NCBI GenBank assembly: GCA_020061125.1
Contig: JAGUYV010000189.1
Location: 1-34,014 of the forward strand
DNA length: 34,014 bases
Direction: 5' to 3'
Origin: a bacterium
GTDB taxonomy: Bacteria > UBP15 > UBA6099 > DSWB01
Positions 2,393 to 29,715 of this stretch are shown here, piece after piece. The translations under genes were made by a program, and so were the position numbers. The first letter of the stretch is position 1. Each line of letters opens with the position of its first letter. The notes under the pieces were generated by a model. That model saw only the letters and a program-made list of their open reading frames with translations. It was not told the DNA's origin and ran no database searches.

Positions 2393-4468
2393 ATGACGGC
2401 AAGGCATGCAAAGAGCAAAAGCATTCTCCCCGAGCTGTCCCTGGACGGCTCGGCATGCCGCGATCTCTCGCACGCGCTGGAACTGGAATGGCTGGAAACC
2501 AACGGGCTGGGCGGCTACGCGTCGTCCACTGTGGCCGGGGCCAACACCCGGCGCTACCACGGCCTGCTCGTTGCGGCGCAGACCCCGCCGACCGGCCGCA
2601 CCGTGATGCTCAACAAACTCGACGAGACCGTGCGGTGCGGAAATGACGAATGGCAACTCGGGTGCAATCTGTTCCCTGGCGCCACTCATCCCTCCGGGCA
2701 TGAATTGATCGAATCCTTCCATCTGGACCCGTTCCCGCGCTGGGTTTTCAGACTCGGTCCGCACCGCCTCGAAAAAACCGTGTTCATGGTCTATGCGCGA
2801 AACGCCGTGGCCTTGTGCTACCGGTGGGTGGACGGGCAGGGCAGGCCCCTGGATTCCGCAAGCGCGCCAAACGCATCTCTGCGCCTGCGCCCCTTCATCA
2901 GCTTCCGCGATTTCCACCACATCCGCAGGGAAAATCCGTACCTGGATTCCTCGTGCGTGTTCAAGGAGGATTCCCTCACCCTGAGGCCCTATTGGAACAT
3001 GCCAGTGCTCACGATTCTGCACCACGGCTTCTATTTCGAGTCGTCTCCGCACTGGCACTACAATTTCGAATATCCCCGAGAGCGGGAGCGGGGGCTGGAC
3101 TTCCAGGAAGACCTGTTCTCGCACGGGGAGCTGGCCCGGCCGGAAATGGGCGCGTCCTGTTGCGTATTGGCATTCATGGGCAAGGCGTCGCGCCTGTTGA
3201 GCGGCGCGCAGGAATCGCCGGAACTCGAAACCTTCGTGAGCGTGCTGCGGGACAAGGAAGTCATGCGCCGCCGCAGGCTGCTCAACGAATTCAAGGGCCG
3301 CAGCGACACTGTGCGCAGGCTCGTGCTTGCCGCGGACCAGTTCATCGCCGAGCGCGGCGGCCGTCGCAACACCATCATCGCCGGCTACCACTGGTTCAAC
3401 GACTGGGGCCGCGACACCATGATCGCTTATCCCGGAATCGCGCTCACGGCAAAGCGCCTGGCCATGCGCCGCGCCACGCTCCAGGCATACGCCGGGTTCG
3501 TCAAGCATGGCCTCATCCCCAACAACTTCCCGGACACCGGGTTCGAGCCGTCTTACAATTCCGTTGACGCCACACTCTGGTTTTTCAACGCGGGCAGCGA
3601 ATATGCGGAGAATTCTGGAGATTACGAGTTTGCAATCCAGGAACTCTGGCCCGTGTTTCAGGATATCATCGCCCATTTCCGCCGCGGCACTCTGTTCGAC
3701 ATCCGCATGGACGAGGACGGGCTGATCACGGCCGGCAGCGAAAACACCCAACTCACCTGGATGGATGCATGCGTGGACGGAGTCCCCATGACGCCGCGCT
3801 ATGGCAAGGTCGTGGAAATCAACGCCCTGTGGCACAACGCCCTGCGCGTGGCCGCCACCTTGGCCGCGCGCGCGGGGCAGGACCCCGCGCCGTACAGCGA
3901 ATTGGCGGACAAAACCCGGGATTCGTTCAACGCCGTGTTCTGGAATCCCGCGGCCGGGTGCCTGTTTGACACCGTCAGCGATCACGGATCTGATTCCGCG
4001 ATTCGCCCGAACCAGCTCGCGGCCTTGAGCCTGCCGCATGCGCTGCTTGATTCAGAGAAAGCCGAGAGCGTTCTGCGCTCCGTTGAAGAGCGGCTTCTGA
4101 CGCCCGTGGGGCTTCGCAGCCTCGACCCCGCGGATTCCCGTTATTGCGGACGATACGCCGGGGGTGTGGCCGAGCGGGACGGCGCGTATCACCAGGGCGC
4201 GGTCTGGGGCTGGCTTATGGGCCTGTACGCGCGCGCCCTGCGCAATGTGCGCGGCGACGACGCGGCCCGAACCTCCCTATCTTCCCTGTACAAATCCATG
4301 AAGCGGCACATCACCACAGAAGCATGCCTCAACTCCGTATCGGAAATTTTTGACGGCGACCCGCCCCATGCTTCGCGCGGTTGCGTGGCGCAGGCATGGA
4401 GCGTGGGCGAATGGCTCTACATAGCCGATTTTCTGGAACCCGCACCGCACCCGGCCCTCCACAAATAA
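2393..4468 (+). CDS. Glycogen debranching enzyme, amylo-alpha-1,6-glucosidase (GH133)
   Basis: Protein of 691 residues matching the prokaryotic GDE family, which hydrolyses alpha-1,6 branch points of glycogen or limit dextrins. The N-terminal sugar-binding beta domain starts with the signature EWLETNGLGGYASSTVAG followed by NTRRYHGLLVA (about residues 33-62). The C-terminal (alpha/alpha)6 catalytic domain has HWFNDWGRDTMIAYPG (about residue 330), NSVDATLWF and TWMDACVDGVPMTPRYGK, which carry the acidic catalytic residues. No signal peptide, so cytoplasmic. It sits 42 bp after eno, consistent with a sugar-storage and glycolysis context. The Shine-Dalgarno is weak. A terminator-like palindrome overlaps its stop codon. 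Confidence 0.95.
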   Translation: MTARHAKSKSILPELSLDGSACRDLSHALELEWLETNGLGGYASSTVAGANTRRYHGLLVAAQTPPTGRTVMLNKLDETVRCGNDEWQLGCNLFPGATHPSGHELIESFHLDPFPRWVFRLGPHRLEKTVFMVYARNAVALCYRWVDGQGRPLDSASAPNASLRLRPFISFRDFHHIRRENPYLDSSCVFKEDSLTLRPYWNMPVLTILHHGFYFESSPHWHYNFEYPRERERGLDFQEDLFSHGELARPEMGASCCVLAFMGKASRLLSGAQESPELETFVSVLRDKEVMRRRRLLNEFKGRSDTVRRLVLAADQFIAERGGRRNTIIAGYHWFNDWGRDTMIAYPGIALTAKRLAMRRATLQAYAGFVKHGLIPNNFPDTGFEPSYNSVDATLWFFNAGSEYAENSGDYEFAIQELWPVFQDIIAHFRRGTLFDIRMDEDGLITAGSENTQLTWMDACVDGVPMTPRYGKVVEINALWHNALRVAATLAARAGQDPAPYSELADKTRDSFNAVFWNPAAGCLFDTVSDHGSDSAIRPNQLAALSLPHALLDSEKAESVLRSVEERLLTPVGLRSLDPADSRYCGRYAGGVAERDGAYHQGAVWGWLMGLYARALRNVRGDDAARTSLSSLYKSMKRHITTEACLNSVSEIFDGDPPHASRGCVAQAWSVGEWLYIADFLEPAPHPALHK

Positions 4469-27006: not shown

Positions 27007-28197
27007 TTACCTTGCTTCGAGTTTCAGGCCGGATATGGGTTTGCCGTCCGCACCGAGAATGTGGATCTTGAAACGGGACAGGTTGGTCTCGCCAGTCAGT
27101 TTGATCACAACCCGGTTGTCCCCGGCTTTGAATTTGCCTTTGGCCATAAGCTCCTGCTTCAGGGAAGGCCGCTTGCCGGATGAGCGGAACACCTCGGCGC
27201 CGTTCACCCACACCGCAATGTGCGCGTCCGAACTGATGCGGAACATGGCGTCCTTCGCCTTTTTGGTTTTGGCGATGAATGTGGCATACGAGGAAAACTC
27301 GCCGGACGCATCCACGCCCCATTCGTCAATGAGGCGGCTCATGTGGATCACGACTTTGTCCTGAAGCTCGTCGGGAATCACATCCCAGTACACGCCTTCG
27401 TCCTGCGCGCTCTGGGGCAGGCCGGAGTATTCGTCTTTGGCGGGATTGACTTTCTTAATGTTGACCGAGTTGTCCTTGAACTTGTCGTATATGGGAAGGG
27501 CCACGAACATAGCGCGAACGGGCACGCCGCAGGAGTTTTCGGCCAGAGACGCTTTTTCGCGGTACTGTGCGGCGTCCTCGCCCCGGCCTTCGGCGATGTC
27601 CGCATATTCGTTATACAGGGACGCGGTTTTCTGGCTAAGCTCGCTGTCGCAGGGGATGTATTCCAGAGCCTGCGCGAAGAGGTCGGCCTTGGAGATAATG
27701 GTGTCGTCGCGGGTGGCGTAACCGTCCGCGCGTTTCATGAGATCCGCGGCCAGATCCTGCAGCACCGCGCGCGCTGCGTCCGAGACCTTTGCGCTCTTGT
27801 CCTGGGACGCGGTCATGAGCAGCGGCACCCAGTCCTTGCCCGGAACCTTGGGCAGCATGCGCACGATCTCCGCGCGCACTTCTTCGGACTTGTCCGTTTC
27901 GTAGGCTTTTTTCATGGTCTCGAAAACGGATTTGTCTGTGCGGCTTTCCGCATACTGGCCGAGCAGATAGGCGAGGTTTTTGCGCGTGCGCTCATTGTTC
28001 TTTTTGCTGTTGAGCAAAGCCTTCTCTATTGTGTCTTTGGAGCCGGGAGTGGCCAGAAGGCTGGCCATGGCCTTCTGGCATGTAGCGTCGGTGTCGCAGT
28101 TGGCGTCGAGTTTCTTGATGTCGCCGCCGCCGTTGCAGCCCGCGGCGAAAGCAGCGGCCAGCGCGAGTAACAAAAGCAGTGTGCGTGCGGATTTCAT
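27007..28197 (-). CDS. HEAT-like repeat lipoprotein with C-terminal beta-sandwich
   Basis: Lipoprotein of 396 residues: basic n-region, hydrophobic segment and lipobox AAGC with C21 as lipidation site. Residues ~35-160 are helical repeats of HEAT type (RTRKNLAYLLGQYAES; EEVRAEIVRMLPKVPGKDWVPLLMT). A helical linker follows, and the C-terminal ~130 residues resemble a carbohydrate-binding beta-sandwich (AHIAVWVNGAEVFR, then KFKAGDNRVVIKLTG). The role is unknown; a scaffold on the periplasmic or outer face is a reasonable inference. A strong AGGAGG precedes the ATG, and a near-perfect promoter lies about 57 bp upstream. Confidence 0.78.
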   Translation of the reverse strand: MKSARTLLLLLALAAAFAAGCNGGGDIKKLDANCDTDATCQKAMASLLATPGSKDTIEKALLNSKKNNERTRKNLAYLLGQYAESRTDKSVFETMKKAYETDKSEEVRAEIVRMLPKVPGKDWVPLLMTASQDKSAKVSDAARAVLQDLAADLMKRADGYATRDDTIISKADLFAQALEYIPCDSELSQKTASLYNEYADIAEGRGEDAAQYREKASLAENSCGVPVRAMFVALPIYDKFKDNSVNIKKVNPAKDEYSGLPQSAQDEGVYWDVIPDELQDKVVIHMSRLIDEWGVDASGEFSSYATFIAKTKKAKDAMFRISSDAHIAVWVNGAEVFRSSGKRPSLKQELMAKGKFKAGDNRVVIKLTGETNLSRFKIHILGADGKPISGLKLEAR

Positions 28198-28253
28198 GGC
28201 CGGACCTCCTGAAGAACGGATGCGGAGCGCCGCGCCTGCGCGGGTCCGGCTCT

Positions 28254-28283
28254 ATTATATGTTGTCTGGAAAAACCGTGTCAA
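28254..28283 (-). promoter_or_regulatory. Near-consensus sigma70 promoter of the HEAT-like lipoprotein
   Basis: On the minus strand TTGACA (28278-28283) and TATAAT (28254-28259), both perfect hexamers, are 18 bp apart. This is the best promoter in the window and suggests high expression of the downstream lipoprotein. Confidence 0.8.
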
Positions 28284-28300
28284 AGTGAGCGGCCGCCCGG

Positions 28301-28411
28301 AGTGCCCGAACGCGGCTGTGCCTGCACCACTTCGTTGCGGGCGGCGGGCTGTTCATTGCAACACGCCATGGATTTTTGGCGATTTGTTTTGAGCGTGCGA
28401 TACAGAGATAC
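28301..28411. other. Non-coding spacer
   Basis: Sequence between the lipoprotein promoter and the repeat-bounded element. I see no gene, hairpin terminator or promoter in it. Base composition is ordinary for the window. Confidence 0.5.
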
Positions 28412-28846
28412 ATCCCCCTTGATCCCCCTTCATTAAGGGGGACCTTTGAGCCGGGTCAGCTTGATTGCCAGATAGTCAAAGGTAAAATTTTGCGCAGGCA
28501 ACATTTCATTACGATGGCTGATGGAACAATCCAATCTTTATAACAACAGAATAGGAATGATATGGTTTTCCTTTATCAAAAAAAATTGCATTGCTAATGC
28601 AGTAAAACATATTCTTGATTTTGTTTCATCTGTAAATTCGCTCTTCTTTTTTTTGTTGTTTTTTGGCTTTGCATTTTGAATTGTGGAAGAACATTCGATA
28701 CTGTCGAAATTGATTTCATGCGATTTCCTGCAACTGGAGCAAATTTAATCATTTTATTGTTTCAGAGATTGATTTGTTTGCGTTTTTTGGCGCGCAGTGA
28801 CGGACAAGCTTCAGGTCCCCCTTAGCAAAGGGGGATCAAGGGGGAT
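28412..28846. repeat. AT-rich element bounded by 34-bp inverted repeats (MITE/REP-pair-like)
   Basis: The left repeat (28412-28445) and right repeat (28813-28846) are inverted copies: each reads ATCCCCCTTGATCCCCCTT, four variable bases, then AAGGGGGACCT. Each copy also folds on itself through CCCCCTT/AAGGGGG. The 367-bp interior is very AT-rich with long T tracts, in sharp contrast to the GC-rich flanks, and encodes no transposase. Similarity between the copies stops at the repeat ends. No clear target-site duplication is seen. This could be a non-autonomous mobile element (MITE) or two REP-type palindromes flanking acquired DNA. Confidence 0.7.
28557..28679 (+). CDS. Possible 40-residue hydrophobic peptide (doubtful)
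   Basis: Inside the AT-rich element, ATG 28557 with AGGA directly upstream (spacing too short) opens a 40-codon frame ending in TGA. It encodes a basic/polar first half and a Phe/Leu-rich hydrophobic second half (SLFFFLLFFGFAF). The hydrophobic tail largely reflects the T tracts, so a chance frame is the more likely explanation. Confidence 0.15.
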   Translation: MIWFSFIKKNCIANAVKHILDFVSSVNSLFFFLLFFGFAF

Positions 28847-28917
28847 ATGCCCTCGTTTCGCAAATTCGATATGAACGCTTTGTCTCATCCCTCTCCGCTT
28901 TCCCGCCTTGCCTGGAA

Positions 28918-28947
28918 CTGAAAGGTTTCCCGGCTGTCGGATATGAT
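28918..28947 (+). promoter_or_regulatory. Candidate promoter of the Cys-rich exported protein
   Basis: CTGAAA (28918-28923) and TATGAT (28942-28947) are 18 bp apart, 42 bp before the ATG at 28990. The -35 is only partly like consensus. Confidence 0.4.
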
Positions 28948-28989
28948 ATAACAGGCTGTATCAACGACCGCATCAAACGGAGGACAATT

Positions 28990-29715
28990 ATGAATAACTT
29001 CAAGCTCAAAATAACGGCCATGTTCCTGCTGCTTGCGGCGCTGGCCGCTGCGCCTGCGCTGGCCGCGCAATCCGTGCGCATCGAATCCATGTCCTGCTCG
29101 GGCGTTCCGACCAGCGTCATGACCCAGGCCATGGAAAGCGAATGGGCGGACACGGGGGCGTCGTGCATCAGTTGCATGGCGTGCGGGTGCTCGTGCACGG
29201 CCGATGGCGTATATGTCGCGGACGGCCTGCGCATTGACGCCACGCGCGTGTCCTGCGAGGGCAAGACTTATACTCTCGTAGCCGGAAACCGATCCTACAA
29301 ATGCGACAGCGTGATAATGAAGCCCGCGGACACGAAAAAGAAAATCGGCGGTCCCCTCGCCGGCAGCCACTTGCTGGACTGCGAGCCGTTGCCCATGGAC
29401 TGGGCACTGGACTGTTTCGCCTATCCGGGCGCGAGCCTAGTCAGCCAGAGCAGCGGCCGGTTCAATTTCGATGGAGACGCATTTTCGGACCAACGCTACA
29501 TTTGGAAAGTGTTCGTAACCGGCGACAAATTCGATGAAGTCAATGCCTTTTTCCGCTCCAGGCTGGGGCAGGAAGTGCGCGCCGTGATGGCCAACGCCAA
29601 ACCCATGGCCGTGTTCCCGATACGGGCGGGCAACTCCTCGGTGACCGTGACCGCGGATGAACGGGCGCGCAAGGTTTACATCACCGTTTTCAAATATGAA
29701 AGCGGGCTGGATTAA
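28990..29715 (+). CDS. Cysteine-rich exported protein of unknown function
   Basis: Not recognised. The 241-residue product has a clear Sec signal peptide (cleavage near ALA/AQ, residue 26). The mature protein has ten cysteines: C36, the dense cluster C59-x2-C62-x2-C65-x-C67-x-C69, C89, C105, C131 and C142. The even number suits disulfides, while the cluster could also bind a metal. The last ~90 residues lack Cys and look like an alpha/beta domain (FNFDGDAFSDQRYIWKVFVTG). GGAGGA lies upstream of the ATG. The MBL-fold gene begins 6 bp after its stop if its long form is used. Confidence 0.75.
   Translation: MNNFKLKITAMFLLLAALAAAPALAAQSVRIESMSCSGVPTSVMTQAMESEWADTGASCISCMACGCSCTADGVYVADGLRIDATRVSCEGKTYTLVAGNRSYKCDSVIMKPADTKKKIGGPLAGSHLLDCEPLPMDWALDCFAYPGASLVSQSSGRFNFDGDAFSDQRYIWKVFVTGDKFDEVNAFFRSRLGQEVRAVMANAKPMAVFPIRAGNSSVTVTADERARKVYITVFKYESGLD

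Follow-up and report, generated by a model that had tools for sequence, protein, structure and literature searches.

Two-ended hairpin repeat units in a bacterial genome and their association with genes for a predicted DUF559 nuclease

The window analysed here (the whole 34,014 nucleotides of contig JAGUYV010000189.1, assembly GCA_020061125.1, from a bacterium of the GTDB lineage UBP15) holds a real, bounded two-ended repeat unit, and the family has about nine such units. That this unit belongs with the repeats flanking DUF559 genes is well supported, and its partner enzyme, judging from the sequences, is probably the predicted DUF559 nuclease. We lean towards regarding the feature as a REPIN- or RIME-like two-ended unit on whose folded ends that nuclease would act, spreading and homogenising them.

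The unit has two inverted arms of 34 bp each (28412-28445 and 28813-28846), identical at 31/34 positions, around a core (28446-28812) of 35.1% G+C in a window of 58.5% G+C. The original prediction of inverted 34-bp repeats around an AT-rich 367-bp core was therefore correct. With a repeat finder the arms lengthened to 50 nt at 80% identity, with 367 nt between them. The half-motif has 2 exact matches in the window; 100 dinucleotide-shuffled versions of the window gave a mean of 0.19 matches when 3 mismatches were allowed. The core sits in the most AT-rich region of the window; 41 of 33,647 segments of 367 bp have a G+C content equal to or below its own, with the minimum at 28422. Each arm is composed of TCCCCCTT, 2 bases, the hairpin TCCCCCTT-4 nt-AAGGGGGA and CCT. 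The lone first TCCCCCTT, a third copy of the hairpin arm, is termed the tail (T) and the hairpin H. The order is T-H on the left and H-T on the right, which gives a T-H-core-H-T unit whose tails both point away from the core. Homology to other units exceeds the 34-bp arms, by about 24 nt beyond the left and about 36-39 nt beyond the right. The features are as follows (numbers with C denote contigs of this genome, C367 being the window).

28388..28411, plus strand: left outer flank, type O2, common to other units and similar to what follows the DUF559 gene at C14 and C34 (alignment).
28412..28445, plus strand: left repeat, with tail 28413-28420, hairpin 28423-28430/28435-28442 and loop 28431-28434.
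28446..28812, no strand: AT-rich core, 35% G+C, single copy in the genome (genome search; composition).
28813..28846, minus strand: right repeat, with hairpin 28816-28823/28828-28835 and tail 28838-28845.
28847..28882, minus strand: right outer flank, type O1, whose far end is ATATGAACGCTTTG on the plus strand; the same position in C410 is ATGAAGCTC, the DUF559 start codons.

As DNA, the left repeat folds at -8.5 kcal/mol (z -2.5), and 28808-28880, with the right repeat, at -13.7 kcal/mol (z -3.0). The neighbours of the unit are a minus-strand ORF (27007-28197) and a plus-strand ORF (28990-29715); the unit is upstream of each, and the two ORFs leave 28198-28989 free. A perfect TTGACA-18-TATAAT promoter match is present at window positions 28254-28283 on the minus strand, upstream of ORF 27007-28197.

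Searches for further copies were carried out over the whole genome (G000), the assembly of which is 79% complete. The pattern TCCCCCTTNATCCCCCTT, with at most one mismatch, was found at 24 places and its reversed control at none. With a model built from 23 ends, 27 copies were detected at E <= 3e-4, some of them (C410, C429, C328) degenerate or variant. Nine tail-out pairs account for 18 of the 27 copies; they lie on C34, C64, C71, C210, C308, C367 (the window), C410, C420 and C455, and their repeat starts are separated by 244-539 bp. Two copies surround a DUF559 gene at C14 (8831, minus; 9302, plus), and one lies to the left of the DUF559 gene at C34 (221, minus), its right partner (691, plus) being counted in both the gene-flanking and the tail-out sets. 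The others are three tandem partial copies (C14 8641, C34 26, C64 862), two single copies (C429, C328) and one that lies where contig C303 ends. The single-copy or always unpaired repeat that the original prediction had named as evidence against itself was thus not what was seen: the repeat is dispersed and mostly paired, and the unit is longer than first claimed. Partial tandem duplications of one unit end, about 190-250 bp apart and 92-99% identical, were observed at C14 8515-8881, C34 1-280 and C64 511-910.

Comparison of the units revealed ends that are alike around cores that are not. Over all tail-out ends but the degenerate one at C410 (17 of 18), the repeat averages about 92% identity, and identity drops to background within about 40 nt on the outer side and 30-60 nt on the inner side. 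C308 and C367 have common ends of 112 bp at 85% and 66 bp at 88% identity; in blastn, C308 444-509 matches C367 28388-28453 at 88%, and the last ~42 nt of the window core, like a few nt at its beginning, belong to subterminal sequence that other units also have (C308 716-826 vs C367 28771-28882, 85%). C64 and C420, at unlinked loci, have common ends of 108 bp at 90% and 147 bp at 85%. In alignments read by eye, the two inner ends are unlike in 7/9 units (all but C34 and C410), one being CCTTGAGCC-like and the other different. The window core has no second copy anywhere in the genome, so the full 435-bp unit is not itself repeated. The other eight cores have 47-58% G+C, generally below their flanks.

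Smaller repeats occur inside some cores. One of ~97 bp with TATACA...TGTATA ends is 93% identical between C420 745-840 and C455 2032-2128, and a second (98 bp) is 92% identical between C71 9566-9662 and C210 2028-2125. In addition, GAGTTTTTCAACAGCCCC, which we take to resemble an insertion-sequence end, is present at C71 9866-9896, right beside the outer end of that contig's unit, and at C420 961-990, within the C420 core.

The same repeat, in the opposite orientation (H-T-gene-T-H), encloses an ORF of 125-126 aa at C14 and C34. Both ORFs are DUF559 proteins (PF04480; Pfam E 1.8e-31 and 2.2e-33). At C303 a copy is followed by the first codons of a DUF559 ORF and then by the contig end. A gene between matching ends at C14 and C34, and incompletely at C303, is the arrangement of the proposed DUF559-associated element. 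At C34 a tail-out unit directly follows the DUF559 gene. The O1 outer flank of tail-out units resembles the DUF559 gene leader, C410 retaining ATGAAGCTC as at the gene start. A third DUF559 gene of the genome (C363) has no such repeat in the flanks read, which covered 16/30 loci. Pfam gives family PF04480 no function; YcjD-like proteins are assigned to the PD-(D/E)XK nucleases, related to Vsr, in the parts of PMC1189080 consulted. Across 14 aligned DUF559 sequences E24, E64 and D66 do not vary and D53 hardly does. A link between DUF559/YcjD and repeats of this kind was not found in print among the openly licensed PMC literature. The cores were also considered as decayed DUF559 genes and rejected as such: a tblastn search of the nine cores with the DUF559 proteins from the survey gave a best E of 0.04 (positive control, 1.7e-93).

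The survey took in 80 DUF559 loci, the best 80 of 513 confirmed relatives, with a detector for a GC-rich hairpin plus a third arm copy and 200-bp bins from the gene. Bins were used at 77/80 loci upstream and 67/80 downstream. At these best 80 of 513 loci, the repeat was present within 200 bp upstream in 61/77 and in 8/75, 1/75, 4/73 and 3/73 in the following bins, then in 0-1; downstream the counts were 28/67 within 200 bp, 4/66, then 0-2. From 400 to 2200 bp the frequency was mostly 0-2% and at most 6%. Mononucleotide-shuffled flanks had a repeat in 2/720, and control neighbouring ORFs of at least 150 aa from the same loci in 2/60 upstream and 3/84 downstream. At least one repeat was present within 450 bp in 69/80 DUF559 loci, and none in 11/80. 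The tail pointed towards the gene in 79/93 nearest repeats (upstream 51 vs 11, downstream 28 vs 3). By record titles, repeat-positive loci came from Thermotogae, Cyanobacteria, Cloacimonadales, Desulfamplus, Nitrosomonas, Candidatus Haliotispira, Dehalococcoidia, Acidobacteria, Clostridiales, Fimbriimonadaceae, Bacteroidetes and Alphaproteobacteria.

On the two sides of a given gene, the repeat arms resembled each other more closely than shuffled partners did (0.904 vs 0.745; 0/2000 at 18 loci). Protein similarity and repeat-arm similarity were not correlated at 55 loci (Mantel rho -0.041, 690/1000 permutations as high). Inverted (24/70) and direct (21/70) flanks at a score of at least 30 were not separated because the repeats are palindromic; this comparison used the 70/80 loci with both flanks of at least 120 bp. 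A CCCCTCC-type pattern was found in 13/14 surveyed genomes tested (reversed control 0), solely as one inverted pair about 425-550 bp apart in some (G046, G050, G052) and dispersed in others. Genome G030, 98% complete, has 13 such repeats, mostly TCCCCCTTAGTCCCCCTT and mostly single (loci L082, L085, L088, L091, L093, L095, L097), and no DUF559 match. The 15 tail-out pairs next to DUF559 genes elsewhere have cores of 22-131 bp, which makes the cores of the present genome unusually long.

Complete units and length variants were found in Sinorhizobium and E. coli. In Sinorhizobium sp. C101 (L194) the DUF559 gene is flanked by two complete T-H-core-H-T units (2328-2457 and 2920-3048), both cores of which start with GACGA and finish with ACGGTGTC while their interiors differ. 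S. meliloti Ak57 (L189) has a similar arrangement on one side. S. meliloti Rm41 is T-H-T, the segment that runs from the first to the second hairpin being absent. Insertion polymorphism was considered for S. meliloti and rejected, the variants being deletions between hairpin arms. Between hrpB and mrcB of E. coli there is a pair in MG1655 and O157 PA20, a single hairpin in O111 88.0502 and PSJ-23, and nothing in CFT073. The variants of the two species thus amount to core loss and to presence or absence, the direction of which they do not give. In MG1655, ycjD (DUF559) adjoins TMECO no. 9 as given in the parts of Holder et al. (PMC4666352) used here. Read by eye, a degraded second hairpin stands at the end of ycjD, with a 22-nt copy of the 3' end of the gene in between. 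The PF04480 search of control genomes gave no match in E. coli, though MG1655 ycjD is annotated as DUF559.

Among known systems, an inverted pair of short palindromes is a non-autonomous unit in REP/REPIN, and its single-gene partner, RAYT, is flanked by the same palindromes. The present family is REPIN-like in its nine dispersed inverted palindrome pairs and in a probable single-gene partner between the same palindromes. Unlike RAYT, that partner is a predicted PD-(D/E)XK nuclease and not a Y1/HUH enzyme; unlike REPINs, the ends have a third arm copy and the cores are long and unrelated. The Sinorhizobium repeat sequence of this survey is presumably RIME. The likeness lies in a short core bounded by two palindromes; in Sinorhizobium this arrangement is dispersed, and L194, L195 and L197 are T-H-core-H-T. 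RIME, the Rhizobium-specific intergenic mosaic element, differs from the window family in its cores of about 25-54 bp and in its sequence, and no partner gene figures in the portion of its description consulted (PMC2573895). The TM/TMECO intrastrand-triplex repeats of E. coli, linked to instability by Holder et al. 2015, are also similar as far as described in the parts of that paper used (PMC4666352): both families have a hairpin with a third arm copy within a few nt, many intergenic copies and some inverted pairs. The E. coli TM consensus in those parts, CCCTCNCCCN3-6GGGNGAGGGN3GGGNGAGGG, is however not matched by the window family, which is TCCCCCTT-GA-TCCCCCTT-N4-AAGGGGGA and has CCCCCTT where TM repeats have CCCTCNCCC. 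By our own reading of the table in PMC4666352, as far as consulted, 4/5 MG1655 pairs are tail-in over 16-27 bp, whereas here nine are tail-out over 244-539 bp. DUF559 is not mentioned in the consulted parts of that paper.

The following course of events is proposed for the favoured reading. The DUF559 nuclease, predicted to be a Vsr-like PD-(D/E)XK enzyme, would recognise the folded end and nick or cut it. The ends could then spread when the damage is repaired from other copies or when the freed unit is captured. Such repair would keep the 34-bp repeat nearly invariant, leaving the core free to decay, be deleted or be replaced. More tentatively, and with somewhat less than even confidence, stand-alone DUF559 nucleases and triplex-type hairpin repeats may constitute one widespread class of minimal elements, mobile or homing, in which a Vsr-like nuclease replaces the transposase and two-ended units are non-autonomous members with exchangeable cores. 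Against the nuclease reading we count the missing target duplication (see below), the lack of co-divergence between protein and arm, the C363 gene without a repeat, the G030 repeats without a DUF559 match and the 11/80 loci without a repeat within 450 bp. The neighbour gene of the window unit is about 30% identical in the few of 6 relatives that have it; the relatives are thus too distant to offer an empty site for the unit, which is likewise counted against it. The S. meliloti and E. coli variants, moreover, look like deletions between hairpin arms, for which a nuclease is not needed.

These last variants bear on the likeliest alternative, in which no enzyme takes part: hairpin or triplex DNA would stall replication, template switching alone would duplicate, delete and homogenise the repeats, and DUF559 genes would merely tolerate them or be regulated by them. 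We consider this unlikely. The E. coli allele series (full, single hairpin, absent), the core deleted between arms in S. meliloti and the unit ends that are duplicated in tandem (C14, C34, C64) are consistent with it, as is the tie between repeats and instability in the consulted parts of Holder et al. (PMC4666352). It does not, however, predict copies at unlinked loci, nor repeats that flank DUF559 genes in many phyla with their tails facing the gene.

Less probable still is a classical MITE: the units would be the non-autonomous copies of an insertion sequence, and the 79%-complete assembly would lack its transposase gene. The ends are inverted and alike, homologous ends occur at unlinked copies and the assembly is incomplete, all as such an element would have it. 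No target-site duplication was found, however: the longest direct match beside eight of the nine units (C410 left out; exact unit borders uncertain by a few nt) averages 4.4 nt, against 4.5 nt between different units. Nor did any of the paired copies that were read enclose a transposase; the gene found in that position is DUF559. The genome has four Y1 transposase genes, and 0/4 lie on a repeat-bearing contig, so the RAYT arrangement, a Y1 gene flanked by the same palindrome, was not seen in this 79%-complete genome. The consulted parts of Holder et al. (PMC4666352) likewise record no mobility genes beside the E. coli repeats. The idea of a non-autonomous mobile element therefore holds only in part: homologous ends at unlinked loci (C64/C420, C308/C367) agree with it, and the RAYT or IS transposase with matching ends gave way to a predicted DUF559 nuclease.

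It is improbable that the unit is a regulatory element whose hairpins would terminate transcription or stabilise mRNA and whose core would be the promoter region of two divergent neighbours. In its favour, the unit is intergenic between a minus-strand and a plus-strand ORF and its hairpins are stable; against it, neither hairpin has a terminator-like site, both neighbours have the unit on their upstream side, the cores of different copies are unrelated and no Rfam match lies above threshold. The earlier suggestions for the core fared no better: promoter-like sites inside it are weak (9 of 12), and as a small RNA it was rejected on the same Rfam result.

DUF559 genes between or beside repeats at most of the 80 loci, in a preferred orientation, provide a concrete candidate enzyme, E. 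coli ycjD included. If the nuclease reading is true, it would supply the missing enzyme for the hairpin repeats of E. coli and rhizobia; its confirmation would place a nuclease-driven counterpart beside RAYT/REP and give a protein family of unknown function its role. On cyanobacterial plasmids (L192 1819-3039; L193 1-3101; L191 2402-3105), DUF559 genes adjoin DUF1156, DUF499 or BREX-like methyltransferase genes according to the record annotation.
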